Assembly (NCBI GenBank): GCA_026168455.1
Contig: CM047428.1
Span: 88,740,594-88,804,593, forward strand
Direction of reading: 5' to 3'
DNA length: 64,000 nt
DNA from: Theocolax elegans
Lineage: Eukaryota > Arthropoda > Insecta > Hymenoptera > Cerocephalidae
In this document: piece after piece, positions 33,740-60,993 of the stretch
Numbering within the stretch: position 1 is the stretch's first letter
Layout: each line of letters begins with the position of its first letter
Notes under the pieces: generated by a model
Told to the model about the DNA's origin: nothing
What the model saw: the letters and a program-made list of their open reading frames with translations, nothing else
Database searches by the model: none
Position numbers and translations under genes: made by a program

Positions 33740-34663
33740 CTGAAATCAAAAACACCTTTTAAAAAGGTGTCAAAACCCGCAAGTATTGTGTTATTTTGCT
33801 AAACTTCATAAGTAGTTTATGCTATTGAAAGTACTGAAATCAAAGCGGAATAATCAACAAGTAGTTTTTACCATACCATAAATTTGTGTATTACTTAAAC
33901 ACTTATACATAGTTGCTTCAAATTTTATACCAATTTCTGCAATTGAAAGAACTGAAATCAAAATGGGATCGACAAGTATTGTGTACCAAATCAACACAAA
34001 CGTTTAATTTATTTATTATTATTTTAGGTATTCACTTTAAATAACTGGTTTATTCGTTATTTATGTCTCTAGAAAGTACTTTATAAAACACCTTCGACGA
34101 AGGTGTCAAACTTCGCAAGTATGGTTTCCAATCACACTTTCAAAAACGATGTCTGATAAAAAATTATTAATTTTTACTCCCATCTTTTTTCTACTTGTTT
34201 TTCTTTTTTATAATTAGACATTTTATATATTTTGCTTAAACTTCATAAGTAGTTTCTGCTATTGAAAGTACTGAAATCAAAGCGGAATAATCGACAAGTA
34301 TTTTTTACCATACCATAAATTGTATTTTAATTAAACGTTTATATATTCTTCTTAAACTCCATAAAAAGTTTCTGCAATAGAAAGTACTGAAATCAAAATA
34401 GAATCAACAAGTATTTATTTTAAAAAATACAAATATCTTTTAAATTGAAAACAAACATTTTTTCAAAAAAGTATCTTACAAGTTTACATTTCAATACTAG
34501 TTCTGTCAAGTCCTACAAGCAATAGATAAATAATTTTTTAATAATTTTATTAATTTCTGCAAAACTGATAAAAAATAAATTTCTCACTTTTTTATTCTCT
34601 TTAAATACACAATGTATATCCTTCCCGTGTCTTGCAGCAATAGATAAACAATTTTATATAATA
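33740..34663 (+). repeat. Left arm of inverted-arm element (central copy)
   Basis: This block is inverted at about 36930-38050. It contains the hairpins acacctttt...aaaggtgt (33751) and aacaccttcgacgaaggtgt (34087) and several subrepeats (gaaagtactgaaatcaaa...cgacaagtatt). It is interrupted at 34664 by an LTR-like insertion and continues after 36137. Confidence 0.8.
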
Positions 34664-36136
34664 TGTAACGCTGCACTGGGGATCAGGGTGCAGGTTATTT
34701 AGGGTCAACTACTTACTATAAATAAAATAAGTATTTATTAATATAAACAAATAATTAGAGATATGGGAGCCAGCCGCGTTAACACGCGACGAATATCGGT
34801 AACACGCGGGTTATCTTAGCCTGATACAATGTAAAGAGCAGTACTCTCGCCGCACCGGTTTATGCTGTAAGGAAGGAAAGGGGAAGGAGGGGACCAGGGT
34901 CTCGCACACACTAGTACGGATACTCGGCGGTACCGTACGCAGCTAGAGTGAATTATTCACCAACCTTATCGGAGTAATCGGCACTCGTCCCTAATTGGCG
35001 ATGTCACTCTCTCTTTCTCTGTCGCTTCGCTCACTCGTACTCGATGTCCTAGACTTCGAGGCACCAGACACTATCGGGCTATCGAATAGATTTCCGTTCA
35101 GGACGGCGGACCGTAGAGCTCTGACTCTCGGCGTGCTCGAGAGCCCCGTGTTCGTACCGCGCGCCTGCGCAGTACGTACTCGTGCGCGGCACCTCGATCT
35201 CGCGTCGTGCGAGCGTGTCGAGTGCCGCAGTGTTCAGGCTGTATCGGTACGAATCGGCTGTATGGTGCTGTATGCCGTGATGACAACCTAGTACGACCTC
35301 TTCCCAGGTAACTAATAGTTCATTAGCTATTTACTGCGTTCTTCAACGGGTACGGCATGAGTTTCAGGTACGAAGCTCACCCGCCGTCGCTTGCTGCTCG
35401 AGGCCGAGTTACCCCTCTCTCTCTTCGACGACGTTGACCTCGCTGATGACTAGCCTCTTCGTCTACAGCTCTAGGTGGGTATTTAGTCGTGAGGTTTACA
35501 CACATGTGAATGTTTGTACGCGTTATTGTCCGAGATATCGGCTGTACACGTTGTTTGTGTACATTAACCTAACCTCAATTTACCCTATTATGTTCCTTGT
35601 ACAGCTGTAGTAATTATACACAGCTGTACATATCTTTCCTTGTCTTGTGTCTTCTTGGCTATGGCTATTTATCCTCTTCCTTGCTCCTTACCTTATTGCT
35701 GTGTTTTTGTTCTCATTAACATCTGTCTTACAGCTGTATCTTGCTTGGCGTTGGAGGTTCTTCGGCTTCCTGCCTGGGTACCACCTCATCGCCTTGGCTG
35801 CTATGCTGTGAGGCTTCGGAGGGTCCTGGAGGCTTCCTAGTGATCGCCTCCCTTGACTATCCTGTTGGCTGTGCCAGACTCGGAGGAGCCCACCTGATAA
35901 TCTGAGCTCGCCCAAGATCCTCAACGCCAGAACCACTTCAGTGTTGTGTGCTGTGCTTGGGAAAGGGTTATTAGATTGTGAGGGTAGGCAGGACGTAGTT
36001 AATGTGCGGGTAGGTAGCTAGGGAATAGTATATGGGTAGGTAGTGTAGCTAGGACTCGTCTAGCTTATCCGGGTAGGTAGGTGTTCGTCAGGGGTTCTGT
36101 CGCTCGCTCTTGACATGTGCAAAGCACATTGTCACA
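34664..36136. mobile_element. Solo-LTR-like insertion, 1.47 kb
   Basis: It begins TGTAACGC and ends TTGTCACA. It interrupts the left arm of the inverted-arm element, and the inverted right arm shows the uninterrupted sequence, which fixes both borders. Flanks are AATA on the left and ACTA on the right, a 4-bp target duplication with one mismatch. It is GC-richer than its surroundings and has no credible ORF. TG...CA ends, a 4-bp target duplication and no internal genes point to a solo LTR, probably Ty3-type. Confidence 0.7.
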
Positions 36137-36298
36137 ACTAATAACAATATTCATTTGTGCAAAATTAATTTCTGCAAAACTAATAAAAAAGTAATTTCTC
36201 TTTTTTTTATTCTCTTTAAATAAAATAATACTTGCACCACCGTTGGTTAAGTGTTTCAAAAGTTTTTTATGATTTACTAATATCCTCTTGTATACTGA

Positions 36299-36508
36299 GG
36301 CCTTGCGATGGCTCGGTCGGTAGGGCATCGGGCTCGTAATCTGGAAGTTCAATGTTCGATTCCCGTCCCCGGCCGATTGATACAAGCACTACTGAAGAAT
36401 GTATTTTCACCAAGTGCTTTCTTCGCCAAGATATCGTATGACTTTCGTCGCTGATTAGCATCGAATCGGGAGCACAAAAAGAACGACGTTAAAATATAAA
36501 AAAAAAAT
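36299..36508 (+). mobile_element. tRNA-derived SINE, near full length
   Basis: The head has an A box (tggctcggtcggtagggc), ctcgtaat in the anticodon position and a B box (gttcgattcccgtccc). The body contains the caagtgctttcttcgccaag segment and the 3' end a cgctgattagc...gaacgacgtta stretch followed by an A-rich tail. It lies in the loop between the two inverted arms, as at 59844. Confidence 0.85.
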
Positions 36509-36821
36509 TCACTTTTATACTGAAAATAGTTTTAAAAAAGTGGACATAAAGCAATCTAATGTTTAAAACGTAATATTTCTAATTTGGAATTGAACGTATC
36601 TATTCGTTTTCTAATCATAAATAGTTGTCAAGTACTGGTACTTTGTTCAACTGCAGAAGTCAAATAAAAATTAATCGCTGTTACGATATATACAGGTCTC
36701 ATGAGTTAACATTAAGTCTTATACTTAATTTTACCTTAAAATATTTATAAGCCCTTGATATAAACATGCATAAGCAGTGTGTTATGCAGTTCGAATTAGA
36801 ACAAGAGTAAGATGGCAATTC

Positions 36822-38055
36822 AACGAGTGGTGCAAGTATTATTTTATTTAAAGAGAATAAAAAAGAGAGAAATTACTTTTTTAATAGTTTTGCAGAAATT
36901 AATTTTGCACAAATGAATATTATTATTATTATATAAAATTGTTTATCTATTGCTGCAAGACACGGGAAGGATATACATTGTGTATTTAAAGAGAATAAAA
37001 AAGTGAGAAATTTATTTTTTATCAGTTTTGCAGAAATTAATAAAATTATTAAAAAATTATTTATCTATTGCTTGTAGGACTTGACAGAACTAGTATTGAA
37101 ATGTAAACTTGTAAGATACTTTTTTGAAAAAATGTTTGTTTTTAATTTAAAAGATATTTGTATTTTTTAAAATAAATACTTGTTGATTCTACTTTGATTT
37201 CAGTACTTTCTATTGCAGAAACTTTTTATGGAGTTTAAGAAGAATATATAAACGTTTAATTAAAATACAATTTATGGTATGGTAAAAAATATTTGTCGAT
37301 TATTCCGCTTTGATTTCAGTACTTTCAATAGCAGAAACTACTTATGAAGTTTAAGCAAAATATATAAAATGTCTAATTATAAAAAAGAAAAACAAGTAGA
37401 AAAAAGATGGGAGTAAAAATTAATAATTTTTTATCAGGCATCGTTTTTGAAAGTGTGATTGGAAACCATACTTGCGAAGTTTGACACCTTCGACGAAGGT
37501 GTTTTATAAAGTACTTTCTAGAGACATAAATAACGAATAAACGAGTTATTTAAAGTGTATACCTAAAATATTAATAAATAAATTAAAATTTTGTGTTGAT
37601 TTGGTACACAATACTTGTCGATCCCATTTTGATTTCAGTTCTTTCAATTGCAGAAATTGGTATAAAATTTTAAGCAACTATGTATAAGTGTTTAAGTAAT
37701 ACACAAATTTATGGCGTTGTAAAAAATACTTGTTGATTATTCCGCTTTGATTTCCGTATTTTCAATAGCAGAAACTTCTTATAAAGTTTAAGCGAAATAT
37801 ATAAAATGTTTACTTATAAAAACAAAAATAAGTAGAAAAAGTTGGGAGTAAGAATTAAAAATTTTTTTATCAACATCGTTTTTGAAAGTGTGATTGGAAA
37901 CCATATTGGCGAAGTTTGACACCTTCGTCGAAGCTGTTTTATAAAGTACTTTCTAGAGACACAAATAACGATAATTATTAGACAACAAATTTTAAAATGT
38001 TTAATACACCGAGACTTGCGAACTTTTATACATCTCGTTGAAGGTGTTTTAATAA
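36822..38055 (-). repeat. Right arm of inverted-arm element, next to the Helitron
   Basis: This is the inverse of 33740-34663 plus 36137-36240, with a further partly duplicated outer section (hairpins at about 37484 and, degenerate, 37920 and 38035). It stops nine bases before the stop codon of the Helitron helicase, so in the Helitron's orientation this repeat family is its immediate 3' flank. Confidence 0.8.
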
Positions 38056-38063
38056 AATATAAT

Positions 38064-40736
38064 TTAAACACTTTCTAAAAATAATACGTATATATTTTTA
38101 GCTCTTTTTGGCCATTGTTTCCTCTGGATTATTAAATCATTAATTTTAAACCATTGCTTATTTTGACGTACCATATTCGTATAGTGACCGGTTTCTATAG
38201 AATCACCGTGATGAAATATTCCACTCATTACTTTATATTTCTTTTTTCCAATAGTCACAATTGATTTTGGAATTTCATTAATACCATAATTATTTAATTT
38301 AGAAACTTTGTTGTTTTCAACGGTAAATATAACTAACTGAAGTATTAGTAAAGTACTTTTTAATGTTAGTTCCATGTTTTGAAGTTTGTTACATCTGCAA
38401 CCATTTTTACAATTTCCTTTAACTTGTAACCAGTTTTCTATGTTGTAATCTAAGACGTGTTGTAAGGTACAAAAGCTATTTGTAATGTCAGGTAAATTAA
38501 GAATTAAGATATAATTTGAGGTAGTACTTTCAGTTCTGTCATCACAGCCAGGACATCGTGTAACATATTTTAAATCAAATTGTAATGTTTTTTGTAAAAA
38601 CGCAGATTTATTACACAGGTGTAATAAAAATTCTGATGCATCTTGCTGCTCTGATAAACTATATTTTGGATCAAGATACTTTCTTAAAGCTGATATGTTC
38701 ATTGTATTTTTTGAAACGTATTGATCGAAAATAGTTTTTAACGGATCAATAGCTTTAAGTTGCGTTAAAGCCCTTCTTACTGTTACCGAGTGAAATAAAC
38801 TTTGGATGCAAGAATTGGCATAGCAGGAAACGTAATCAAAATTAGGTATTCCAAAGATATTCCAACAGTTATCCTTCAAATAATTTAAGTAAGCGTTTTC
38901 GTCATTAATAGATAAGTTTGTAGTAAGAGTCCATCGAACATCTTTAACCAAATTATTTTTAAGTAAACGAGCGGGTTTTCCGTCGGGAATTGCAAATTCT
39001 TCGAGATCAGATCGAAAACATTGCCTTAATCTATTATATTCAAGGACAGCTGATAAATCAGCCATAATTCGCGATGGATCGAAATTAATAAAATGTAAAC
39101 CCTTTATTGTTGTAGCGCGCGAGCAAGCAACGTAAGTTTGACCGAAAGTAAATATATTGTTACCAGCATCTACAACTACATTGTCTAAGCTGAGACCCTG
39201 ACTCTTATGAATAGTAATTCCATAACTATTACATATCGGAAATTGTTTGCGAATTATGCAAATTCTATCCATCACAACAAATTTAAATTCCAGCCGATCA
39301 AGTGAATATTCTTGACCGCTTTCTAATTTAATATGTATTTTTGTACATTCATTATCTTTATCTTTTAACACTGCGATAACTGTTGCTATAGTACCATTAA
39401 CTAATCCAATAGTTACATCAATATTTCTCCTGATCATAATTTTTGAATTTAATTTAATTGTTATTACGCGATCGATACCACAAATATTGTTGTCTTCTTC
39501 ATTTATCAACTTTTGAACTTTTTTTTCTAAATTTTTAGGACATTTAAAACAATCATGAGCAACAAGTTTTATTTCTTCTGAATCTATTCTTTGCAACATA
39601 GCTGTATTTAAGACATTACACATTTTTTTAGTTGGTAATAAACAAATAGTATTTAAAGGTAATTTATTCAAATAATTGCAGAGCTCTTTAACAATTTCAG
39701 CGGAATTATGCGTGGTAAATGCAGTATTTTGTTTTTGTAACATATCAATATCCGTTTTTGTCACGAATCCGAGTCTCATTCTAGATAAAATATCGTTAAA
39801 TTGTTTATCTTTCAATTGTCTCATATTAATATTCAATTCGTCGTAAGAAAATAAATTCCATAAGTTGTATGAATTTATACCTCCAATGTACTTATTAATT
39901 TGTTGCTTCGATAATTCTTTAAATGCAAATTCTTCATTAACCGGAGGGAGTTGCAACAGGTCTCCGAAAACAACAATATGTTTTTTTCCAAACCAACCAT
40001 CGTCGGTATCAGAAGTATCAAATATTTCTCCTAGCCGTAAGTGAATGTACATCAGCATAATATTTGATACCATAGAAATTTCATCAAGTATAATTAAATC
40101 AACATCTTTTAAACTTAATCTTATCTGCTTCAATGCTGCTGAGGATAGTTCTTTATATTTTGCGGTACCTCCTTGTTCTACTGGTAAATGTAACAGTCTA
40201 TGAACAGTAAGACCGTCAATGTTATATGCTGCTATACCAGTAGGTGCAGTGACAGCAGTTTCTTTGTTTCGAATTATCTTGTTCCACGCTACGAGCAGTT
40301 TGATAATGTAGCTCTTTCCCGTACCTCCAGAACCACTAACAAAAAATCTTAAAATTGTATTTTTTGACGATAGTACAGATGTAATACTTTCAAAAACTCT
40401 TGCTTGATCTTCATTCAGTTTTGTAATAGATTCTTGAAGGACTGTGGGCGTCATTGAAAAATTCTGCGCAATATCCTGAAAGTCTTTCATAGCATTTTCC
40501 ACATCAATAGGGATACAACCTACAGGTAAATTACTTGAGTTTGATTGACTGTTTGAGTCATTTTTTTCTAACTGTTTGTGAATCTTTTCATTCATTTTAT
40601 CTCTAGCTTCGCGAATCTCATTAAATTTATCGTGATATTTCATTGCTTCGATTAGTTCATTTCCTTTTTTAAGAAATGCGTTTTTGTATGTGCTTTCGTT
40701 CCCTTTTAATTCATTGTAACCGAGGGATTTTGCCAA
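38064..40736 (-). CDS. Helitron PIF1-family helicase with C-terminal USP domain (copy A)
   Basis: 890 codons, open. Residues about 130-560 form a PIF1-like SF1B helicase: Walker A (GSGGTGKS), Walker B (DLIILDEISM), motif III (GDLLQLPPV) and the late motifs GITIHKSQGLSLDNV and VACSRA, all intact. It unwinds DNA ahead of the displaced strand during Helitron replication. Residues about 635-890 form a ubiquitin-specific-protease-like domain: the Cys box VSCYANSCIQSL, QQDASEF, zinc-type pairs CPGC and CKNGC, and the His box HHGDSIETGHYTN followed by WFKINDL. The catalytic Cys, His and Asn/Asp are all present. The first codon is not ATG; in the original element this is an internal segment continuous with Rep, and upstream codons belong to the insert. 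Confidence 0.88.
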   Translation of the reverse strand: MAKSLGYNELKGNESTYKNAFLKKGNELIEAMKYHDKFNEIREARDKMNEKIHKQLEKNDSNSQSNSSNLPVGCIPIDVENAMKDFQDIAQNFSMTPTVLQESITKLNEDQARVFESITSVLSSKNTILRFFVSGSGGTGKSYIIKLLVAWNKIIRNKETAVTAPTGIAAYNIDGLTVHRLLHLPVEQGGTAKYKELSSAALKQIRLSLKDVDLIILDEISMVSNIMLMYIHLRLGEIFDTSDTDDGWFGKKHIVVFGDLLQLPPVNEEFAFKELSKQQINKYIGGINSYNLWNLFSYDELNINMRQLKDKQFNDILSRMRLGFVTKTDIDMLQKQNTAFTTHNSAEIVKELCNYLNKLPLNTICLLPTKKMCNVLNTAMLQRIDSEEIKLVAHDCFKCPKNLEKKVQKLINEEDNNICGIDRVITIKLNSKIMIRRNIDVTIGLVNGTIATVIAVLKDKDNECTKIHIKLESGQEYSLDRLEFKFVVMDRICIIRKQFPICNSYGITIHKSQGLSLDNVVVDAGNNIFTFGQTYVACSRATTIKGLHFINFDPSRIMADLSAVLEYNRLRQCFRSDLEEFAIPDGKPARLLKNNLVKDVRWTLTTNLSINDENAYLNYLKDNCWNIFGIPNFDYVSCYANSCIQSLFHSVTVRRALTQLKAIDPLKTIFDQYVSKNTMNISALRKYLDPKYSLSEQQDASEFLLHLCNKSAFLQKTLQFDLKYVTRCPGCDDRTESTTSNYILILNLPDITNSFCTLQHVLDYNIENWLQVKGNCKNGCRCNKLQNMELTLKSTLLILQLVIFTVENNKVSKLNNYGINEIPKSIVTIGKKKYKVMSGIFHHGDSIETGHYTNMVRQNKQWFKINDLIIQRKQWPKRAKNIYVLFLESV

Positions 40737-41480
40737 GTAAGGAAACCAGGGTGGGGTTGAGTAAAGACCAACACTTTTTATTTCTAAATGAGTATTTATT
40801 ATTCGCTTAACTAAATTATAACCCGCTCGTCCTTATGTCTCTGCAACAAATGAATACAAGAAGAGTCTCGTTAGTCACATAAATCTATTCGCATGCGTGT
40901 TATGACTGTGTATATACAATATATGTGTGATATGCTAGCCAGGCAATATAATTACTAATACGGAATACAAGGTTACAATATACTAATGACGCGGTTACCC
41001 CTCGACGAGAGCGACTCGATCGTCGATAGGGCAGAAAATCTCGGTGGTGTCGATAATCCTCTGGAGAACCAAGAGGGTTATCGACCCAAACGCTAAAACG
41101 AAACTGGCTAGGTGTGTACGACGGTGTCGACTTGCCTCCCTCCACTATGGTGCGCCGATAGCCAAAGGAGCAAGTTTCGCAGACGACTATCCTGGTGAAC
41201 CGAGGAGAGTCGTCTATTGCTTTCGCGGTTACGGTGTCGCGGGGGCACGTACGCGGTCGCGGGGCCAAGCACCTTCCTCGTTTCGCCCACGGTGAACCAG
41301 TGGGAGAACCGAGTCGGGTTATTACTGACGTACTCTGGAGAACCGAGGGTACGGTCAGGACTCGAGCTTGTCTCAGCCCCCGAGAGGATCGCGCTCTCAA
41401 CCTGGTGAACCGAGGTAGAGAGGGAGTGCTCCTGCTCGGGCCACTGCGCCAAACCGACTGCCCGTTCTGGTATGCGCGCC
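40737..41480 (-). mobile_element. Partial copy of inserted LTR-like sequence
   Basis: This matches 44087-44833 nearly base for base and lies at the junction between the two helicase copies. It stops at gcgcgccgg, where it joins the 3' end of helicase copy B. Its presence shows that the insertion came first and the tandem duplication of helicase plus insert second. Confidence 0.8.
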
Positions 41481-44086
41481 GGTTATTAAATCATTAATTT
41501 TAAACCATTGCTTATTTTGACGTACCATATTCGTATAGTGACCGGTTTCTATAGAATCACCGTGATGAAATATTCCACTCATTACTTTATATTTCTTTTT
41601 TCCAATAGTCACAATTGATTTTGGAATTTCATTAATACCATAATTATTTAATTTAGAAACTTTGTTGTTTTCAACGGTAAATATAACTAACTGAAGTATT
41701 AGTAAAGTACTTTTTAATGTTAGTTCCATGTTTTGAAGTTTGTTACATCTGCAACCATTTTTACAATTTCCTTTAACTTGTAACCAGTTTTCTATGTTGT
41801 AATCTAAGACGTGTTGTAAGGTACAAAAGCTATTTGTAATTTCAGGTAAATTAAGAATTAAGATATAATTTGAGGTAGTACTTTCAGTTCTGTCATCACA
41901 GCCAGGACATCGTGTAACATATTTTAAATCAATTGTAATGTTTTTTTGTAAAAACGCAGATTTATTACACAGGTGCAATAAAAATTCTGATGCATCTTGC
42001 TGCTCTGATAAACTATATTTTGGATCAACATACTTTCTTAAAGCTGATATGTTCATTGTATTTTTTGAAACGTATTGATCGAAAATAGTTTTTAACGGAT
42101 CAATAGCTTTAAGTTGCGTTAAAGCCCTTCTTACTGTTACCGAGTGAAATAAACTTTGGATGCAAGAATTGGCATAGCAGGAAACGTAATCAAAATTAGG
42201 TATTCCAAAGATATTCCAACAGTTATCCTTCAAATAATTTAAGTAAGCGTTTTCGTCATTAATAGATAAGTTTGTAGTAAGAGTCCATCGAACATCTTTA
42301 ACCAAATTATTTTTAAGTAAACGAGCGGGTTTTCCGTCGGGAATTGCAAATTCTTCGAGATCAGATCGAAAACATTGCCTTAATCTATTATATTCAAGGA
42401 CAGCTGATAAATCAGCCATAATTCGCGATGGATCGAAATTAATAAAATGTAAACCCTTTATTGTTGTAGCGCGCGAGCAAGCAACGTAAGTTTGACCGAA
42501 AGTAAATATATTGTTACCAGCATCTACAACTACATTGTCTAAGCTGAGACCTGACTCTTATGAATAGTAATTCCATAACTATTACATATCGGAAATTGTT
42601 TGCGAATTATGCAAATTCTATCCATCACAACAAATTTAAATTCCAGCCGATCAAGTGAATATTCTTGACCGCTTTCTAATTTAATATGTATTTTTGTACA
42701 TTCATTATCTTTATCTTTTAACACTGCGATAACTGTTGCTATAGTACCATTAACTAATCCAATAGTTACATCAATATTTCTCCTGATCATAATTTTGAAT
42801 TTAATTTAATTGTTATTACGCGATCGATACCACAAATATTGTTGTCTTCTTCATTTATCAACTTTTGAACTTTTTTTTCTAAATTTTTAGGACATTTAAA
42901 ACAATCATGAGCAACAAGTTTTATTTCTTCTGAATCTATTCTTTGCAACATAGCTGTATTTAAGACATTACACATTTTTTTAGTGGTAATAAACAAATAG
43001 TATTTAAAGGTAATTTATTCAAATAATTGCAGAGCTCTTTAACAATTTCAGCGGAATTATGCGTGGTAAATGCAGTATTTTGTTTTTGTAACATATCAAT
43101 ATCCGTTTTTGTCACGAATCCGAGTCTCATTCTAGATAAAATATCGTTAAATTGTTTATCTTTCAATTGTCTCATATTAATATTCAATTCGTCGTAAGAA
43201 AATAAATTCCATAAGTTGTATGAATTTATACCTCCAATGTACTTATTAATTTGTTGCTTCGATAATTCTTTAAATGCAAATTCTTCATTAACCGGAGGGA
43301 GTTGCAACAGGTCTCCGAAAACAACAATATGTTTTTTTCCAAACCAACCATCGTCGGTATCAGAAGTATCAAATATTTCTCCTAGCCGTAAGTGAATGTA
43401 CATCAGCATAATATTTGATACCATAGAAATTTCATCAAGTATAATTAAATCAACATCTTTTAAACTTAATCTTATCTGCTTCAATGCTGCTGAGGATAGT
43501 TCTTTATATTTTGCGGTACCTCCTTGTTCTACTGGTAAATGTAACAGTCTATGAACAGTAAGACCGTCAATGTTATATGCTGCTATACCAGTAGGTGCAG
43601 TGACAGCAGTTTCTTGTTTCGAATTATCTTGTTCCACGCTACGAGCAGTTTGATAATGTAGCTCTTTCCCGTACCTCCAGAACCACTAACAAAAAATCTT
43701 AAAATTGTATTTTTTGACGATAGTACAGATGTAATACTTTCAAAAACTCTTGCTTGATCTTCATTCAGTTTTGTAATAGATTCTTGAAGGACTGTGGGCG
43801 TCATTGAAAAATTCTGCGCAATATCCTGAAAGTCTTTCATAGCATTTTCCACATCAATAGGGATACAACCTACAGGTAAATTACTTGAGTTTGATTGACT
43901 GTTTGAGTCATTTTTTTCTAACTGTTTGTGAATCTTTTCATTCATTTTATCTCTAGCTTCGCGAATCTCATTAAATTTATCGTGATATTTCATTGCTTCG
44001 ATTAGTTCATTTCCTTTTTTAAGAAATGCGTTTTTGTATGTGCTTTCGTTCCCTTTTAATTCATTGTAACCGAGGGATTTTGCCAA
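41481..44086 (-). pseudogene. Helicase-USP copy B with 1-nt lesions
   Basis: This is the tandem copy of 38125-40736. It has single-base deletions relative to copy A near 42551, 42794, 42984 and 43614, plus compensating indels near 41933-41947, which split it into frames 44086-43583, 43637-42960, 42996-42787, 42790-42539 and 42419-41397. The C-terminus is cut at the duplication junction (41481) and runs on into the insert. Apart from these indels it is almost identical to copy A, so it is either a very young pseudogene or an assembly-error version of an intact gene. Confidence 0.88.
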
Positions 44087-44966
44087 GTAAGGAAACCAGG
44101 GTGGGGTTGAGTAAAGACCAACACTTTTTATTTCTAAATGAGTATTTATTATTCGCTTAACTAAATTAGAACCCGCTCGTCCTTATGTCTCTGCAACAAA
44201 TGAATACAAGAAGAGTCTCGTTAGTCACATAAATCTATTCGCATGCGTGTTATGACTGTGTATATACAATATATGTGTGATATGCTAGCCAGGCAATATA
44301 ATTACTAATACGGAATACAAGGTTACAATATACTAATGACGCGGTTACCCCTCGACGAGAGCGACTCGATCGTCGATAGGGCAGAAAATCTCGGTGGTGT
44401 CGATAATCCTCTGGAGAACCAAGAGGGTTATCGACCCAAACGCTAAAACGAAACTGGCTAGGTACGACGGTGTCGACTTGCCTCCCTCCACTATGGTGCG
44501 CCGATAGCCAAAGGAGCAAGTTTCGCAGACGACTATCCTGGTGAACCGAGGAGAGTCGTCTATTGCTTTCGCGGTTACGGTGTCGCGGGGGCACGTACGC
44601 GGTCGCGGGGCCAAGCACCTTCCTCGTTTCGCCCACGGTGAACCAGTGGGAGAACCGAGTCGGGTTATTACTGACGTACTCTGGAGAACCGAGGGTACGG
44701 TCAGGACTCGAGCTTGTCTCAGCCCCCGAGAGGATCGCGCTCTCAACCTGGTGAACCGAGGTAGAGAGGGAGTGCTCCTGCTCGGGCCACTGCGCCAAAC
44801 CGACTGCCCGTTCTGGTATGCGCGCCGGTATATATACCCGTTGACGGCCGCTAGGTGTCTCTCGTTCGTCGGTATAGGAGTGGGGAGCAGTCCCTTAATC
44901 CTGCTTGCTCCGCGAGATGTTAAGCGCGAGAGCACGGCGTATTGCTTATAGCAAGGGCTCTCGTCG
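44087..44966 (-). mobile_element. LTR-like sequence inserted between Rep and helicase
   Basis: GC-rich sequence unlike the Helitron's AT-rich genes. It holds five copies of a ctggWgaaccgagg-like motif at 44410-44760, a TATA-type sequence (gccggtatatataccc) at about 44825, and an AATAAA on the - strand near the end next to the helicase (about 44145). Promoter-like and poly(A)-like signals without an ORF suggest a solo LTR. I could not find TG...CA ends with a clear target duplication, so this is a tentative label. It stops the Rep frame at 44920. Confidence 0.5.
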
Positions 44967-47925
44967 CATCATCAGTGTCTCTCCAAGGTTGAAATAATAA
45001 AAGCAAAGCATAAAAGTATTCTTCAGGCTTAGAATCGGGGTTATTTTTATAATGATTTATTAAATAGGGATTTTTTCTCTTTCTGTAAAACAGATTTGGA
45101 GGTAACTCATAATATTCTACCTTTCGAACAGGTTTTTTCTTAATAACATCGTACCATTTAGCAAAATCATATAAACATAGCGATTCTAACTCTTTAGGTC
45201 GTAGTGGATAATGGGTATCTACTAGTGAAGCATAATAAATATCTGTAGAATCATCAGGAAGCTTAGCCACTTCCGAACGTTTCTTAAGTTTTCTATTTCT
45301 TACTTCTCTTATATCTAGCCACCTAATAACTGTATTGCGATCAGTACCGTGAAGAGGATGGCCTAAAAGAGCATCAGCAGCTTCAATAGCCCCTATTTCT
45401 CTGTGATTTAAAGCTCTTATAGAGAAAGACCACAGTCGGCTACATAATGATTCATTGGTTTTTATTTCTTCAAAATCTATCATGCTTTTTTCACCTTTAG
45501 TCCCATAACTGCATACATAACTTGTTAACGTATAAGATGACTCACAAATGAATTGTGCGTCATTGTTGCCTTCCCAAATTACTAAAAGGGCAGGCATATA
45601 ATCATTTATATTTTGCTCTTCTTGACTGCGTGGTAAATCGTAAAATCTACCCTTGTTTTTCAATTTTTTACGGTTAGCTATTGAAACGGATACAGGTCTA
45701 AATACTAACTGATCTGTTACTGGACGAGCAAATCCAAAACGACAGGCACTTTTGAAACCAGTTTTAGTTTCTGTCTTTCTTATACAATAATCATTATGAC
45801 GATGCTCTTGATAAGTGGTTACGCGTCTGTACAGCTCTGGAGATATATTCTTGTCAGGTATGCGACAAGTGATATTTTGCAAAATGAACTTTTCAACTTC
45901 TTCATTAGATGCTTTTCCATAAACCGGTGCATTTTTTATCCAAAATAAGCAATGGTAATGAGGCATCCCTCTTCCTTGATATTCGACCGTGTAATAATAA
46001 TGTAATATTTCACCAATTGGTCGAGCTGGAGAAAGCAAATATGCAAAAATTGCAGTCATCTTATTGTGAAAATATCTTGCAGCCGATACTGGATCTGCTG
46101 CAATTAATGCGCTAGTATCTCTACTATCATTTTCCCAGTCATTAACTTCACGAATATATTTAGCCATCTCTGGCCACATCCATTCACTGAGACTTAGGGT
46201 AACAAAAAAAGTTACAGGCCCTCTTTCGGTCATCATACAATCTAAATCATTTCTTACTTTTTTCCAATAAGTTTCAGTACCTCGCAGCCGCGAGAAAACT
46301 GTTTGAATATTCAAATTTTCTTCATCATTTCTCACATTTTGTAATAAATCTTTGGCCGTATATTTATAGCGCGGATTGTGAACATTCAGTACATGAAAAA
46401 TTTCGGCATTAATTTGTCGTATCGTATTATTAAACAGCAAGTAAAACAAGTATTGATTACTTAACCTAAACGGATTGTGTTTAGAAGTCAGTCTAGACTT
46501 AATAAAATCAAATTCTCTCAAAGGCACAATTCGATTTTCTTGCTGTCCATCAATACCAAAAGGGTAAAGATCGGGGAAACATTTTAAATCCAATTCTTTT
46601 TCCCTCGAGTTCAAAGGGTTAGCGGAAACTGGTAACATTTGGTACAGCTTAGTATCAAGTTCATTCATTTTCTTCTGATGTAAGGGATATATTGAATACT
46701 GTTCGTAATAAGAATCTGATAAAGATTTTTGCGTCAATAAAGCATCTTTTTTGTGAATATCATTTTCATTTCTATTTACACCAGAGGCATTATGAATGAT
46801 TTTACCAGCCGAATCAATTTTTTCCAACGATTCAAAAGTACGAAGTGATTTCATAAGTTCTTCAGGAGAATGAGGAATATTGATTTCTGCATAAAGGTGA
46901 TTCCATTCCTTAAAAAATTTTAAAGCCTCCCACACTTTTTTAATATCAACATAGTCTTCCCAAATAATTTTACTCTTTGTAGGATTACTTCTTACTAAAA
47001 CGAATATTTCATGGTTACTATTCAGAGGATCTGTATTCGGACAAAGTTTCTTCAATGTCTGTTCTATCGGTAAAGGTAAATGAAAAGTTCTACCTTTTAC
47101 TTTATCTAGTTTACAATGATACGGAACATTCGCTTTCATAACTGTTCCTGCTTTTATTACTGTTTGAAACGCCTTAGCGCGTTGAATTAACATTTTTTCA
47201 AAGTCGTTTAAAATTTTAACCTCTTCAGGCGTTTTTTTAACAGAAAGATTATTCAAAAAACAAGTAGCTGGTAAAGTATATTTTTTAAATTTACTAATAC
47301 AGTATTTACATATGTAAGAGCTATTAAATTCTTCTGCATCATACTGGCGCTTTAGTTTTTCCCAGCAGTTGTTATCAATATCAAGACCAAGTAAATCTGT
47401 TATTAAATTCATTTTGTCTGCATATTTCGATACAGGATCAAGATTACGGTCACACCACAGTCTTTCGCAAGAAACGCATGCTGTTGTTGGTGGATCCATA
47501 ACAATTTTGTTAAACTGTTTAATTCCTGTTTTATATTTTTTTATTAATTCGTTTTCGTCTAAACATATTTCACTTTTTGTTTTTTTAAGAGAAATATTAC
47601 ATTTAGCAGCAATTGCTATACTCTTTAGTGTATCTGTGTCTGTGTTATTTAAAGCATCGTCAATATTTTCAATACATTTATAAAGTCGTTTCAACGAATA
47701 TATTTGTCCCTTTATTGTTCGGAGTTTAGGATAATGTACAGCTAACATGCTTAGTTTTAAAAATTTAGATTTACAAAGTAATGGTTGAGCATAGCAAATA
47801 AGAGGATGACCAATTTTGTCTGGAACTAATTCTGAAGTACAAAAGTCAATTGTTTCTAAGAAACTAAAACCAGTTACGTAAGTTAAATCAAGTATTTTTT
47901 CAAATAAACATTTAAGTTCTTTCAA
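44920..47925 (-). CDS. Helitron Rep (HUH, two-tyrosine) endonuclease
   Basis: 1,001 codons, of which about the last 15 are read-through into the insert. The N-terminal third has Cys pairs resembling zinc-binding sites (ACVSC near 47475; YICKYC near 47305). The Rep core has the HUH motif RGMPHYHCLFW near residue 655 and the paired tyrosines SYVCSYGTK near residue 800, spaced four apart as in Helitrons. The protein nicks DNA and becomes covalently attached through Tyr to start rolling-circle transposition. The C-terminal ALLLLFQPWRDTDD is the usual lead-in to the helicase, now 880 bp or more away. The first codon is TTG and there is no nearby ATG. It overlaps the ORF1 stop by four bases in the -1 frame. 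Confidence 0.88.
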   Translation of the reverse strand: MKELKCLFEKILDLTYVTGFSFLETIDFCTSELVPDKIGHPLICYAQPLLCKSKFLKLSMLAVHYPKLRTIKGQIYSLKRLYKCIENIDDALNNTDTDTLKSIAIAAKCNISLKKTKSEICLDENELIKKYKTGIKQFNKIVMDPPTTACVSCERLWCDRNLDPVSKYADKMNLITDLLGLDIDNNCWEKLKRQYDAEEFNSSYICKYCISKFKKYTLPATCFLNNLSVKKTPEEVKILNDFEKMLIQRAKAFQTVIKAGTVMKANVPYHCKLDKVKGRTFHLPLPIEQTLKKLCPNTDPLNSNHEIFVLVRSNPTKSKIIWEDYVDIKKVWEALKFFKEWNHLYAEINIPHSPEELMKSLRTFESLEKIDSAGKIIHNASGVNRNENDIHKKDALLTQKSLSDSYYEQYSIYPLHQKKMNELDTKLYQMLPVSANPLNSREKELDLKCFPDLYPFGIDGQQENRIVPLREFDFIKSRLTSKHNPFRLSNQYLFYLLFNNTIRQINAEIFHVLNVHNPRYKYTAKDLLQNVRNDEENLNIQTVFSRLRGTETYWKKVRNDLDCMMTERGPVTFFVTLSLSEWMWPEMAKYIREVNDWENDSRDTSALIAADPVSAARYFHNKMTAIFAYLLSPARPIGEILHYYYTVEYQGRGMPHYHCLFWIKNAPVYGKASNEEVEKFILQNITCRIPDKNISPELYRRVTTYQEHRHNDYCIRKTETKTGFKSACRFGFARPVTDQLVFRPVSVSIANRKKLKNKGRFYDLPRSQEEQNINDYMPALLVIWEGNNDAQFICESSYTLTSYVCSYGTKGEKSMIDFEEIKTNESLCSRLWSFSIRALNHREIGAIEAADALLGHPLHGTDRNTVIRWLDIREVRNRKLKKRSEVAKLPDDSTDIYYASLVDTHYPLRPKELESLCLYDFAKWYDVIKKKPVRKVEYYELPPNLFYRKRKNPYLINHYKNNPDSKPEEYFYALLLLFQPWRDTDDATRALAISNTPCSRA

Positions 47926-50897
47926 AATGTCTGGATCAAGTGTTTAAAAAAAACATTGCACTCCCAAATTTTATGTTTACCTTTTGACTCCATTAATGGT
48001 AATATATTAGTAGACTGACCATTTTCATTTAAAATAATAGTTCCCAAATCTTTTATATCAAAATTATAAGTTGCAAAAAAAGCTTCTGTGCAAGAAGTAT
48101 GTTTAGGCATACCGCACAAGGCCGTTAGAGCATACTCTAGATTTTCTTCGATGTTTATGTCTCCTAATCGAATCTTCGAGATTTCTATCGTATTCTTACA
48201 GTTCCTCAATTCTTTTTTTATTTTTGAAATGTAGTCATCCCTAATATATATAACTTTTTTTACTAAACACTCTGCTTCGATTCTACGATCTGTCAAAGAT
48301 GAGGTATCTGATAATTTTTCCATAACATCTTCTATCAATTTTTCTTTTGATCGAAGTAGATATTTTGTATTATTTTTCACGGTTATAGCTTTATATTTTT
48401 TCTTTATTTTTGCAGCTAGTGCATTTTTCGAGTTAATCATTTTTACTTCACGTTCTAAAGGAGTGACTTCGTATTTTATAGTAGCTACATTTGATTTTGT
48501 TTTTAAGTTATACTTTTTTTTTTGTATCGATATTCCTTCTTTATGACTCTCGTAATGTAACTTTCCGTAATGTAATGTACCTTTTTGCAAAATTTCATGA
48601 GGTACAAAGTCAATATTTAATTGATTAGAATTGTTTTCGGATATCTGTGATAGATGCTGTTTTGTAGTCTCATCCGCAAATGCTTGATTAACATTGTTTT
48701 CAATTGTATTTGATGTTTGTTTCAGCAAATCACATAATGAAATTTTTCTTATTTTTTTAATTTTTTCTGTCTTTTCATTATATTTTCGTTTTCTTTGGCA
48801 AATCATAACTTTACTTTCCTGACGATCATGAGTACATTTACTTTTTAAATGATTCCCATTTATTACCGACTGACTTTCTTCCATATATTTTGTACACTTA
48901 TCTAATTTCTCATTTTTATCATTTTCTTCATCTTGTAATGAATTTAAAGATATTACATTATGCTTTTGAACCTTTTTAGTAACTGACAAATTCCTTGAAA
49001 TGGGTGAATCTTGATTTTTATTTAAACCGATTACTTTTGACTGTTTTACAGTTTCTTGTGTGTCTAGAAATAACATTTTTGTCTTGTTTACTTTTTCTTG
49101 TAGATTTACATTAATACAAGTTAAATTATTATCACATTTAGTTTTATCAACTCTTTCAAGAGATTTGTGATCATCTTTTAATAATTGATAGTCCATACCA
49201 TGATTTACTACAGTTTTCACTTTAGATTCATTTTTTACAGAAGTGAAATGTTTGCGTTTAGTTACAACTTCTAAAGAGCATTCAGTAGATAAGTCTTTCA
49301 TTAAACTTTCATTTCCATTTTTGATTACATCTTTTAAATAATTTGTTTTTGCTGTAAAAGAAACTTTTTTCATTTGCGGAATTTCTTCTAAAAAAATCAT
49401 ATATACTTCTGCAGCATTTTTTGGCCAAGTAGTTTCAGTAACATTTAAGTCATTGATGCGTAACCATTTATTATGTTTTCGAATAATACTTGTATAATGG
49501 TCATACGAAATACTAGTTCCATGATGAAATATCGCACTTATTACCCTGTACTGTTTTTTATCAAGAACTATTTTTTCATTTTGCACATTACGAATTTGTA
49601 AATTAGTAATTTTCGAAGTTGTTCCCATATTGAAATTTACAGAAAATAATTGTAATTGTAATATTATACACGAATTAAGTGTTGTAAGTTCTAACTTTTC
49701 TTGTAATGTAACATTGCACCCATTTTTGCAGTGCATATCAAGAGGATTCCATCGTCCTAGGTTGTAATTAACAAGATCTTGTAAAGTAATACTTTGATGA
49801 TTAACTTCTGGAATAGAAAGTGGCAATATGTAACCAGTCATGGAATTTAAATATTTTTCTTCTTTACAATTAAAGCATTTTGAAAAAGTTGTTAATTCAT
49901 GCTTAAAAACAGATTGTAGATTATTTGAACGATGGAAAAGATAAGTAAGAAATTCTGATACATCTTGTTGTTGCGCACAACTAAACTCTTGATGAGCAAA
50001 CTCTCTTACTTCATTAATATCAACCGTACCTTTCAAAATGTAATGTTTAAACGCATAATTCAATGCATTATCTTCAGGATTTTGGAAAACACTTAGCAAT
50101 ACATTTTTACAATTCAATAAACTTTGTATTGAAGAATTTGCATAACATGATACTTTATCAATATTGGGTAATCCGATAACATGTACAACATCTTCTGAAT
50201 TGTTTTTTATCTTCTCAAGTAAACGATTTATGATTGAATTATCATAACAATCAGATTTGTTAATCAAAGATTTACTTAATTGCTTGTCGGCTTTTTGCTG
50301 ATTGTGATTAACATTTGTATAATTCACCACAGGAAAATGTATAAGTTTGTTGCATTCAAACATTTGAATAAGATGACTACGTAAATTACTTTGGTTGTTT
50401 ACTATTAAAGATGGATTTTTTTTAAAGGCCAATGATGTAGCAAAGGCCATAGCAAACAGTGCACAGTCAGTAGCATTACCCTGGTATTGCACGTTTGGAT
50501 AATGTACACTAATTTGATTAAAGTACGGAAACAAATGTTTTAAGAACACTTCGTGGCATTTATGCAATTGTTTTTTATTCAACGAATCATAAATAAAAAT
50601 AGCCTTGGTATCGTAATAGCAGCAAATCCAATGTCCATTTATACATGCATTACATAAGTCATCACAACTGTGTAGTAGCTGTACGTGTTCAACGTTTCGA
50701 GGGACCGGAAGTATACGATTAGATTGCGCATTTTTCATAACACGTTGAAGAAGTAATGTGGATCGAGGGTGAATAGAAGTATAAGTACTGAATATATTAT
50801 GAAATTTATCAACGTGCGTATCTTTTAATTCAGATCCATTAATAATCAATTGCTTGTCTTGATGAGTAAGCATATATTTGTCTACTTTATTGTTCAT
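47922..50897 (-). CDS. Helitron ORF1: ULP1-like protease and USP-like domain
   Basis: 991 codons from a true ATG. Residues about 70-185 resemble a C48/ULP1 cysteine protease: HWICCYYD with the catalytic His, an acidic residue in IYDSLN, then Gln and Cys in VQYQGNATDCALFA. Residues about 240-505 are a USP-like domain: Cys box VSCYANSSIQSL, QQDVSEF, zinc pairs CFNC and CKNGC, and His box HHGTSISYDHYT with WLRINDL. It is clearly homologous to the USP domain at the end of the helicase ORF. The last 480 residues are Lys/Asn-rich and probably disordered, ending in a Cys-containing segment. Such domains cleave SUMO or ubiquitin conjugates; what they do for a Helitron is unknown. It ends in a T run one base out of frame with Rep. 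Confidence 0.8.
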   Translation of the reverse strand: MNNKVDKYMLTHQDKQLIINGSELKDTHVDKFHNIFSTYTSIHPRSTLLLQRVMKNAQSNRILPVPRNVEHVQLLHSCDDLCNACINGHWICCYYDTKAIFIYDSLNKKQLHKCHEVFLKHLFPYFNQISVHYPNVQYQGNATDCALFAMAFATSLAFKKNPSLIVNNQSNLRSHLIQMFECNKLIHFPVVNYTNVNHNQQKADKQLSKSLINKSDCYDNSIINRLLEKIKNNSEDVVHVIGLPNIDKVSCYANSSIQSLLNCKNVLLSVFQNPEDNALNYAFKHYILKGTVDINEVREFAHQEFSCAQQQDVSEFLTYLFHRSNNLQSVFKHELTTFSKCFNCKEEKYLNSMTGYILPLSIPEVNHQSITLQDLVNYNLGRWNPLDMHCKNGCNVTLQEKLELTTLNSCIILQLQLFSVNFNMGTTSKITNLQIRNVQNEKIVLDKKQYRVISAIFHHGTSISYDHYTSIIRKHNKWLRINDLNVTETTWPKNAAEVYMIFLEEIPQMKKVSFTAKTNYLKDVIKNGNESLMKDLSTECSLEVVTKRKHFTSVKNESKVKTVVNHGMDYQLLKDDHKSLERVDKTKCDNNLTCINVNLQEKVNKTKMLFLDTQETVKQSKVIGLNKNQDSPISRNLSVTKKVQKHNVISLNSLQDEENDKNEKLDKCTKYMEESQSVINGNHLKSKCTHDRQESKVMICQRKRKYNEKTEKIKKIRKISLCDLLKQTSNTIENNVNQAFADETTKQHLSQISENNSNQLNIDFVPHEILQKGTLHYGKLHYESHKEGISIQKKKYNLKTKSNVATIKYEVTPLEREVKMINSKNALAAKIKKKYKAITVKNNTKYLLRSKEKLIEDVMEKLSDTSSLTDRRIEAECLVKKVIYIRDDYISKIKKELRNCKNTIEISKIRLGDINIEENLEYALTALCGMPKHTSCTEAFFATYNFDIKDLGTIILNENGQSTNILPLMESKGKHKIWECNVFFKHLIQTF

Positions 50898-51065
50898 AAT
50901 GAAAATTTAAATATCACATTTCAATGAGGTAAAAATTATTTATTGTGGTAAAATATAATGCAGCTATCAGATAAAGAATTTTCTAGTAAACTTTTTTATT
51001 TTAAAGCAGCTAGTTGCCTTAAATATATAATATAATATATAATAATTGCAGTTAAATAGCCTTTT
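50898..51065. other. Helitron 5' flank
   Basis: AT-rich leader upstream of the ORF1 ATG. No TATA box or Helitron 5' end could be assigned. Confidence 0.4.
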
Positions 51066-51203
51066 GCCAGCGCTTAGAGCAACCGTGCGTCAGCGCTTAC
51101 AGCAGCCGTATGCCAGCGCTTGAAGCAGCCGTGCGTCAGCGCTTAGAGCAGCCGTATGCCAGCGCTTAGAGCAGCCGTGCACCAGCGCTTGGAGCAGCCG
51201 TTT
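51066..51203. repeat. 23-bp minisatellite, exactly six units
   Basis: Six units of 23 bp built on gccagcgcttagagcagccg, with the last bases of successive units mainly alternating gc and at. It is GC-rich in AT-rich surroundings, 169 bases upstream of the Helitron ORF1 start. Each unit holds an agcgct palindrome. Confidence 0.95.
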
Positions 51204-58950: not shown

Positions 58951-60993
58951 TGATTCTAATTCCCATATTTTCTCTACTTATTTATATTTTAATTACACCT
59001 TTTCTATATCTAACTTATATTCCATAATATTTTTCTGCAATTGAAAGTATTCAATTCGAAAACACCTTCCAAGAAGGTGTCAAAACCCTCAAGTATTGTG
59101 TTATTCTAATCAAACTTTGAAAATTATTATCTGATAAATAAATTCTGCAATTCAATCTGACATTGTTATCTAATAAATAAATAATTTTAATTCTAACTAC
59201 CTTATTTTATCTATTTCTTTGAATTTTAATTAAACATTTTTTTTAAATATTACGAAAATTTCGTATAAAAAATTTCTGCTATTGAAAGAATTGAAATCAA
59301 ACTGAAATCGACAAGTATTTTGAATCCTACCATAAATTTATATTTTAAATAAACATTTACTTAAACTTCGTGAAAAGTTTCTGCAATTGAAAGCACTGAA
59401 ATCAAACTGTAATCGACAAGTATTTTTAACCATGCAAAAATTTCTACCAATCTGAATACAGATTTTTTTTTATGAAAAGTATCTTTTCACTATTATTTTT
59501 CATTTCTGGCCCTTACATGTTTTACAGTAATAAATAAATAATATTCTAATGATATTAATTTGTGCAAAATTAATTTCTGCAATACTAATAAAATGGACAT
59601 TTCTTTTTTATTCTTTGAAATAATAAAATAATACTTGCACCACCGTTGGTTAAACGCTTCATATATGTGTTAATTCTAACCTACTAATGTATTCCTTTAC
59701 ATTTATGAAATTATAATACCGTGAAGAAACTGCAATGAGTAATAATAAATAAATATAGCAATACTTTCTGGCAATTTTATTATCCTACATCACCAATGAA
59801 AAAATAGACATCATTATTTTTATCTAATAAAGTTCTCAAAAGAGGCTTGCGATGGCTCGGTCGGTAGGGCGTCGGACTCGTAATCTGGAGGTCCCAGGTT
59901 TGATTCCCGGCCCCGGCCGATTGATACAAGCACCGCTGGCGACTGTATTTTCAACAAGTGCTTTCTTCACCAAGACATCCTATGACCTCCGTCGCAGATT
60001 AGCACCGGTTTGGGAGCATAAGAAGAGCGACATTAAATTAATAAAAAAAAAAAGAAAAAGTTTTCATATCAGTAAACTCAGTATAATGCCTTGCGGTTAT
60101 TTGTTTAAATACAAGTTTTGCTTAGTAGTTATGTAAAATAATTGTTATTTCACTTAACTAAGTATATATACAATCTATCTTATTTTACCAATTAATTAAT
60201 TAATTAATAAGATATAATAGCTAAGATGTATGTAATTATTTATAAAATGTAACATCAGTTAATATAGTCAGAATTAACACATATATTAAGCGTTTAACCA
60301 ACGGTGGTGCAAGTATTATTTTATTATTTAAAAGAATAAAAAAGAAATGTCCATTTTATTAGTATTGCAGAAATTAATTTTGCACAAATTAATATCATTA
60401 GAATAGTATTTATTTATTACTGTAAAACATGTGAGGGCCAGAAATGAAAAATAATAGTGAAAGATACTTTTCATAAAAAAAAATCTGTATTCAGATTGGT
60501 AGAAATTTTTGCATGGTTAAAAATACTTGTCGATTACAGTTTGATTTCAGTGCTTTCCGTTGCAGAAACTTTTCACGAAGTTTAAGTAAATGTTTATTTA
60601 AAATATGAATTTATGGTAGGATTCAAAATACTTGTCGATTTCAGTTTGATTTCAATTCTTTCAATAGCAGAAATTTTTTATACGAAATTTTCGTGATATT
60701 TAAAAAAAATGTTTTATTAAAATTCAAAGAAATAGATAAAATAAGGTAGTTAGAATTAAAATTATTTATTTATTAGATAACAATGTCAGATTGAATTGCA
60801 GAATTTATTTATCAGATAATAATTTTCAAAGTTTGATTAGAATAACACAATACTTGCGGGTTTTGACACCTTCTTGGAAGGTGTTTTCGAATTGAATACT
60901 TTCAATTGCAGAAAAATATTATGGAATATAAGTTAGATATAGAAAAGGTGTAATTAAAATATAAATAAGTAGAGAAAATATGGGAATTAGAAT
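58951..60993. mobile_element. Inverted-arm (foldback) element with SINE in the loop
   Basis: Left arm 58951-59678 and right arm 60268-60993 are inverted repeats of about 730 bases with high identity (gattctaattcccatatttt pairs with aaaatatgggaattagaatc). Both arms carry the hairpin acaccttccaagaaggtgt (about 59063 and 60867, the latter in inverted form) and the gaaatcaaactg...cgacaagtatt subrepeats. The loop holds a SINE. There is no coding capacity. Confidence 0.85.
59844..60060 (+). mobile_element. tRNA-derived SINE, full length
   Basis: Head: A box tggctcggtcggtagggc, anticodon position ctcgtaat, B box gtttgattcccggcccc. Body with caacaagtgctttcttcacc, 3' end cgcagattagcaccggttt...gagcgacatta and an A-rich tail. 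The loop resembles a Thr (CGT) tRNA but the acceptor stem does not pair, so it is a SINE and not a tRNA gene. Confidence 0.88.

Follow-up and report, generated by a model that had tools for sequence, protein, structure and literature searches.

Rolling-circle transposons of the Helitron type are already known to carry cysteine proteases. Helentrons encode an OTU cysteine protease together with an AP endonuclease (PMC4067079), and OTU domains in Helentrons are described also in PMC6431247, in agreement with what a sequence-only reading of the DNA studied here had stated of them. A second family, the papain-fold, viral-tegument-like deubiquitinases (VTDs) of Helitrons, includes active zebrafish copies; one VTD element has two VTDs, and another combines a VTD with an OTU domain (PMC9741609). 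To judge by the title of its description (Capriglione et al. 2014, PMID 25178533), the Helitron2 Helinoto from the icefish Chionodraco hamatus has a transcribed region that contains three deubiquitinase-like domains. Ginger1, Mutator and other transposases are fused to Ulp1 or OTU, Ginger1 having either one or the other and not both, and a Trichomonas protein joins transposase_11 to peptidase C19 (PMC2836005). We found no description of a Helitron with a USP or ULP1 domain in the openly licensed literature surveyed; the word protease occurs 0 times in the accessible text of two papers on insect Helitrons (PMC6544945, PMC5714489), and an account of one plant region mentions a Ulp1 gene and Helitrons without linking the two (PMC5240378).

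The stretch analysed here, 64,000 nucleotides of the Theocolax elegans genome (the window), holds on its minus strand an element whose transcript order is a ULP1-like domain, a first USP (USP1), a basic linker, a conserved region unnamed in Pfam (the pre-Rep region), DUF6570, Rep, the Pif1 helicase and a second USP (USP2); all coordinates below are on this strand unless stated. ORF1 (991 aa, 47922-50897) comprises the ULP1-like (C48) protease domain (50313-50897, catalytic H89, D104, Q139 and C145), USP1 (C19; 49395-50174), the basic linker and the first part of the pre-Rep region. ORF2 (44920-47925), which overlaps ORF1 slightly in a different frame, carries the remainder of that region, DUF6570 (46867-47274, Pfam E 5.7e-13) and the HUH Rep, recognised by Pfam as Helitron_like_N (45946-46485, E 4e-27) with a PHYH (HUH) motif at the domain end. 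The Pif1 helicase domain (39753-40421, PIF1 E 2.6e-30) is followed in the same frame (38064-40832) by USP2 (C19; 38079-38831, UCH E 1.3e-12), fused to the helicase C end. Rep and PIF1 signatures on one strand had been noted from the letters alone, and the profiles bear this out. Upstream of the ATG lie 23-bp tandem repeats (51058-51201, unstranded); related tandem repeats, varying in copy number, are found 5′ of the ATG in other copies.

The element is probably an autonomous rolling-circle transposon of the Helitron type, and its window copy is broken: a solo LTR has inserted, 3.35 kb are duplicated in tandem, and the reading frame is interrupted. The LTR (44065-44968, 904 bp, TG...CA, with a 4-bp target duplication) lies between Rep and Pif1; we identified the insert as an LTR because its sequence, present elsewhere in the genome at 96-99% identity, often occurs there in pairs about 6244 bp apart (40/59 candidates scored). 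An RNA gene was rejected for this insert, the window giving no Rfam match at the gathering threshold. The tandem duplication takes in part of the LTR and the Pif1-USP2 segment, with most blocks at 98-100% identity and small length differences, and may be an assembly artefact. Its inner Pif1-USP2 segment (41483-44064) has broken frames and a USP2 that is short at the C end; a truncated second copy of the solo LTR follows (40715-41482), and then the Pif1-USP2 segment with an open frame (38064-40714, open from 40832, within LTR sequence). The ORF1 frame closes before ORF2 in the window and runs on in three other copies.

Six window frames were scanned with Pfam profiles. USP1 matched UCH (E 4e-19, over aa 242-501) when ORF1 aa 1-520 were scanned alone, and no UCH match was returned for the whole 991-aa ORF1. 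Both USPs have the N-C-H-D positions and all four ribbon cysteines filled, the Cys and His boxes of USP1 being present, and the catalytic positions of the ULP1-like domain are likewise as expected. The sequence-only reading, of one ULP1-like and two USP-like domains with intact boxes, therefore stands for the catalytic positions; positions 38064-50897 nonetheless contain three USP-like stretches, one cut short in the tandem duplicate, and the copy as a whole is not intact. Its expectation of Helitron_like_N, PIF1, UCH and C48 profiles held for the first three, the window ULP1 segment having no Peptidase_C48 match even at E 1. Among eight aligned relatives, five match Peptidase_C48 with E values no higher than 1, the best being 2.6e-6, so that the USP and ULP1 profile matches that the same reading had set as a test are found, UCH in the window and C48 in relatives. 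Scanned singly at E 0.01, L043 (copy C5; 4.5e-5) and the database protein P0002 (2.4e-5) exceed the Pfam cut-off for C48 and L042 (copy C1; 0.0041) falls below it, with no C48 match for L040 (copy C2), L045 (copy C246) or P0001. A ULP1 family profile ranked SENP1 first in the PDB, at an E of only 0.015, in an alignment that pairs the stretches containing His, Asp, Gln and Cys. We base the ULP1-like assignment on these relatives, with modest profile support, and the sequence would fit SUMO, ubiquitin or another substrate alike. ORF2 gave no match against the PDB by phmmer, and NCBIfam returned general helicase matches only, for the Pif1 frame alone.

Relatives elsewhere in the genome reveal the undamaged architecture. 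Three diverged copies have a single open frame from the first ATG to a stop after USP2 (C2, 2904 codons; C1, 2940; C5, 2928), and a fourth, C246, is open for 2093 codons up to the contig end; intact relatives encode one protein of about 2,900 aa comprising ULP1-like, USP1, basic linker, pre-Rep, DUF6570, Rep, Pif1 and USP2. Rep and Pif1 share a single frame in C2, C1 and C5, the pair being split by the LTR in the window. No Helentron-type C-terminal AP endonuclease profile was found in the six window frames, the intact frames ending with USP2, and no OTU or tegument (VTD) profile matched in the window frames scanned; this sets the element apart from Helentrons that bear AP endonuclease and OTU.

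Searching the 658-Mb genome with ORF1 and Pif1-USP2, with part of the candidates scored so that counts are lower bounds, we found dispersed copies of the element: at least 16 loci hold the ULP1 start. At 13 of these 16 a Pif1-USP2 piece follows on that strand, no more than about 16 kb downstream (Pif1 only at C4:54.6 Mb and C780), and 11 have a USP2 match; no such piece was found downstream at C505 or C1:56.25 Mb, and C246 stops at its contig end. Seven dispersed pieces start at USP2 aa 199-201 and run to the USP2 end at aa 278, and the four of these that were read share common sequence past the stop codon. L054-L057 are short dispersed elements with the USP2 end and the 3′ region only, as if non-autonomous derivatives; L054 has a 17-bp inverted repeat near the point where its likeness to L056 stops. 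A remoter relative (G000:C7:39575633-39577879) has 53% identity over Pif1 and a 2707-codon frame with one stop within the match.

We sought the ends of the element as a 5′ TC and a 3′ CTRR with a hairpin, with no target duplication. Dispersed repeats flank it on both sides. The edges in the 5′ comparisons were abrupt and non-canonical; at the 3′ side the sequence passes into a dispersed repeat, partly a long inverted repeat, whose copies reach past the compared stretch. This repeat starts some 90 bp past the USP2 stop (window 34003-37971); its inverted-repeat arms (34003-34663 and 36927-37587) are 99% complementary, and the C2, C1 and C5 copies are followed by related repeats, which occur also at many other genome sites. 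The window ends 3.2 kb short of the contig end, and the two ends of C2 have a full copy and a USP2 piece nearby; a subtelomeric element was rejected, there being no TTAGG arrays in the three contig-end stretches read. Elsewhere in the window, a predicted tRNA-Thr (CGT; 59844-59919) lies within a repeat, perhaps tRNA-derived, that recurs near 28.9, 29.1, 30.1 and 36.4 kb; a 1299-aa open frame (11843-15742, plus strand) closes with a chitin-binding domain of the peritrophin-A type (CBM_14 E 5.1e-5), and a 518-aa open frame near the contig end (61686-63242, minus strand) is without a convincing Pfam match.

To gauge constraint on the proteases, we estimated dN/dS by the Nei-Gojobori method for five pairs of copies. 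Between C2 and C1, at a dS of 0.33-0.69 (mostly near or above 1 in the other pairs), dN/dS was 0.17 for ULP1, 0.35 for USP1 and 0.15 for USP2, compared with 0.55 for the linker, 0.14 for the pre-Rep region, 0.20 for DUF6570, 0.06 for Rep HUH, 0.07 for Rep C and 0.10 for Pif1. The linker had the highest value and USP1 the second highest in all five pairs, by a small gap for C5-C246 (ULP1 0.37, USP1 0.41, linker 0.48); USP1 is the least constrained of the three proteases, and USP2 ranged from 0.14 to 0.17 (USP2 and Pif1 being comparable in three pairs). The ULP1 H-D-Q-C set is intact in all 16 distinct loci (17 rows, L027 repeating L016), and the USP1 N-C-H-D set in 15 of the 18 distinct loci in which all four positions are readable, a count that leaves out partial or overlapping rows; L023, L026 and L037 each have one USP1 catalytic position changed. 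Because the ULP1 residues are intact throughout and protease dN/dS is 0.15-0.35 against 0.55 for the linker, we regard the proteases, by these substitution measures, as constrained parts of the element and not passengers.

In a tree of 46 USP domains, the six N-terminal USP1 rows cluster together (99/98), as do the four USP2 rows (100/99), and within each of these clades the window and C2 pair first, joined by C1 and then C5; P0001, a database protein equal to none of the copies read, groups by its USP1 with USP1, and P0003-P0005 group with USP2 (93/94). Since the two clades are separate, share their branching order and include database proteins, both domains are older than these lineages. USP1 and USP2 come together in a larger clade at 86/90 only, from which their origin by duplication inside the element appears likely.

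The Pif1-USP fusion recurs in ants, wasps and a sponge. Among the best 120 of 134 proteins from a second protein search, UCH is annotated in proteins of Linepithema humile, Trachymyrmex cornetzi, Cyphomyrmex costatus and Prorops nasuta, and also of Cardiocondyla obscurior, Nylanderia fulva, the sponge Dysidea avara and others. When eight proteins were scanned, UCH followed PIF1 in five (P0007, P0009, P0012, P0015, P0019) and a Pif1 2B piece in P0024; P0005, from Trichogramma kaykai, showed PIF1 only, matching the USP profile without the catalytic Cys, and P0032 had PIF1 first and OTU last. Outside the T. elegans genome, P0001 and P0002 are the only proteins in which we saw the N-terminal ULP1-USP module. 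P0002 has two ULP1-like domains ahead of the USP start, the first with Ser for Cys and the second with Asn for Asp. A full ULP1-to-USP2 protein was not found among long database proteins (query, the N-terminal part of the C246 protein), and the viral contigs scanned held no relative.

These observations bear on whether the protease segments might be captured host fragments with no function for the element. Helitrons often capture gene fragments (PMC6431247), the best PDB matches of the USP profile include the host proteins USP46, USP12 and USP8, and the catalytic Cys is missing from 17 of the 46 USPs. Against this, the protease domains are under purifying selection, active sites are kept in diverged copies, USP1 and USP2 branch in the same order, and the helicase fusion is found in other animals; capture unique to this locus, on which the sequence-only reading would have fallen, is contradicted by the recurrence of the segments at the 16 ULP1-bearing loci and in database proteins. 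We regard host capture as very improbable and largely refuted.

Catalytic competence is less uniform than domain retention. The first three zinc-ribbon cysteines are present in 46/46 USP domains and the catalytic Cys in 29/46. Eleven retrieved proteins have a pair of protease domains following helicase sequence, which in several is fragmentary: six with USP-USP tails (P0009, P0010, P0012, P0018, P0024, P0025) and five with USP-OTU tails (P0030, P0031, P0032, P0034, P0037; OTU by Cys motif alone in P0031). In all eleven the inner USP is without the catalytic Cys, whereas the Cys motif is present in the outer domain, be it USP or OTU, that domain being incomplete in P0018, P0024, P0025 and P0031; P0036 and P0045 have a dead USP with no outer domain seen. 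In the C5 copy, USP2 has Ser for the catalytic Cys despite an intact frame, while USP1 is intact; given this and the 17/46 USPs lacking the Cys, USP2 catalysis is therefore not always needed. The USP fold probably doubles as a ubiquitin-binding module, because catalytically dead USPs retain the zinc-ribbon cysteines. It could be argued further that the USPs are mainly ubiquitin-binding or scaffolding modules, one active protease per element being enough, as the ribbon retention, the dead-inner, live-outer arrangement and the C5 copy would all suggest. However, both USPs are intact in the window, C2 and C1, with USP2 constrained between the last two as noted above; the only USP seen is dead in the single tails of P0004, P0005 and P0033; and a single clade of twelve rows takes in 10 of the 11 dead inner USPs (the exception being P0010), so that these eleven losses perhaps reflect just two independent events. 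A mainly scaffolding role for the USPs seems to us improbable.

The reading that we find best, and moderately probable, is of a Helitron Rep-helicase carrying its own ubiquitin/SUMO erasers, with proteases that act in trans on conjugates. Their fusion to the Rep-helicase, their constraint and their mostly complete catalytic sites suggest that they probably act during transposition, and that the element interferes with host ubiquitin/SUMO tagging while moving. The proteases would act in trans on ubiquitin or SUMO conjugates: tethered to the transposition protein, they might strip tags from that protein itself, shielding the Rep-helicase against degradation, or clear them off host chromatin and repair factors where copying takes place, or both. 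Such removal of ubiquitin or SUMO, whether the target is the Rep-helicase or a host factor at that site, is a plausible function and the simplest one. The nearest experiment to this proposal is the cleavage of ubiquitin chains by the VTD domains of zebrafish Helitrons (PMC9741609).

The sequence-only reading had also suggested that the element processes its own polyprotein. On this view the proteases would cut the giant product into ULP1-USP1, Rep-helicase and other parts in the manner of viral or Polinton cysteine proteases. The intact copies are indeed one frame of about 2,900 aa, and the fast-evolving basic linker lies between the protease and Rep parts, as expected of a cleavable spacer. 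Adenovirus polyproteins are processed by CE-clan proteases, which lends the idea a precedent; USP and ULP1 enzymes, however, recognise folded ubiquitin or SUMO. No Gly-Gly is conserved between domains in the C2, C1, C5 and C246 proteins: C2 has 3, C1 2 and C5 1, all inside the helicase, and C246 has 1, in the pre-Rep region, where composition predicts 2.4, 2.4, 2.1 and 1.3, respectively. Counts in keeping with composition and the lack of a conserved inter-domain pair make self-cleavage at ubiquitin/SUMO-like junctions unlikely; an adenain-like site was also absent with the single pattern tried, though cleavage specificity may be unusual. The suggestion is weakened, and we judge polyprotein processing unlikely.

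A broader proposal is more tentative, and we would claim a minor likelihood for it. Animal rolling-circle transposons might bear an exchangeable protease tail on Pif1, in which a conserved, often-dead USP fold would hold ubiquitin while marks would be erased by an active USP or OTU beside it, or by a USP together with a ULP1 at the opposite protein end; in the lineage described here, ubiquitin and SUMO erasers riding on the replisome could block, where copying takes place, host silencing or DNA-damage signalling that works through ubiquitin or SUMO. That distinct protease families occupy one and the same position after the helicase suggests that rolling-circle transposition generally has to overcome ubiquitin/SUMO signalling, an idea that the intact frames render testable.

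Deubiquitinase-like domains in Helitron-like elements are already known, and the USP/ULP1 set differs from the Helitron architectures in the literature surveyed. Helentrons resemble the T. elegans element as Rep-Pif1 rolling-circle elements with a putative deubiquitinase (PMC4067079), whereas the T. elegans element lacks AP endonuclease and OTU and has, in one frame, a USP on the helicase C end and ULP1-USP on the N end. VTD elements share Helitron-encoded deubiquitinases, those of T. elegans being putative by sequence, but as described they are Helentrons with a C-terminal endonuclease, and the T. elegans families are C19 and C48 instead of VTD. Helinoto, compared here through its title, has three deubiquitinase-like domains; the T. 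elegans element has one ULP1-like and two USP domains in one frame with Rep and Pif1. Ginger1 and Mutator are cut-and-paste elements, in contrast to ULP1 and two USPs on a rolling-circle Rep-helicase. Also close are the Pif1-USP proteins of Linepithema, Trachymyrmex, Prorops, Dysidea avara and others, which have the same fusion, are annotated as helicase or uncharacterized and in some cases have Helitron_like_N upstream, with the ULP1-USP N-terminal module seen only in P0001 and P0002 besides T. elegans. The T. elegans element adds USP and ULP1 to the OTU and VTD proteases known in Helitron-like elements, and places them under selection in one protein with Rep and Pif1.
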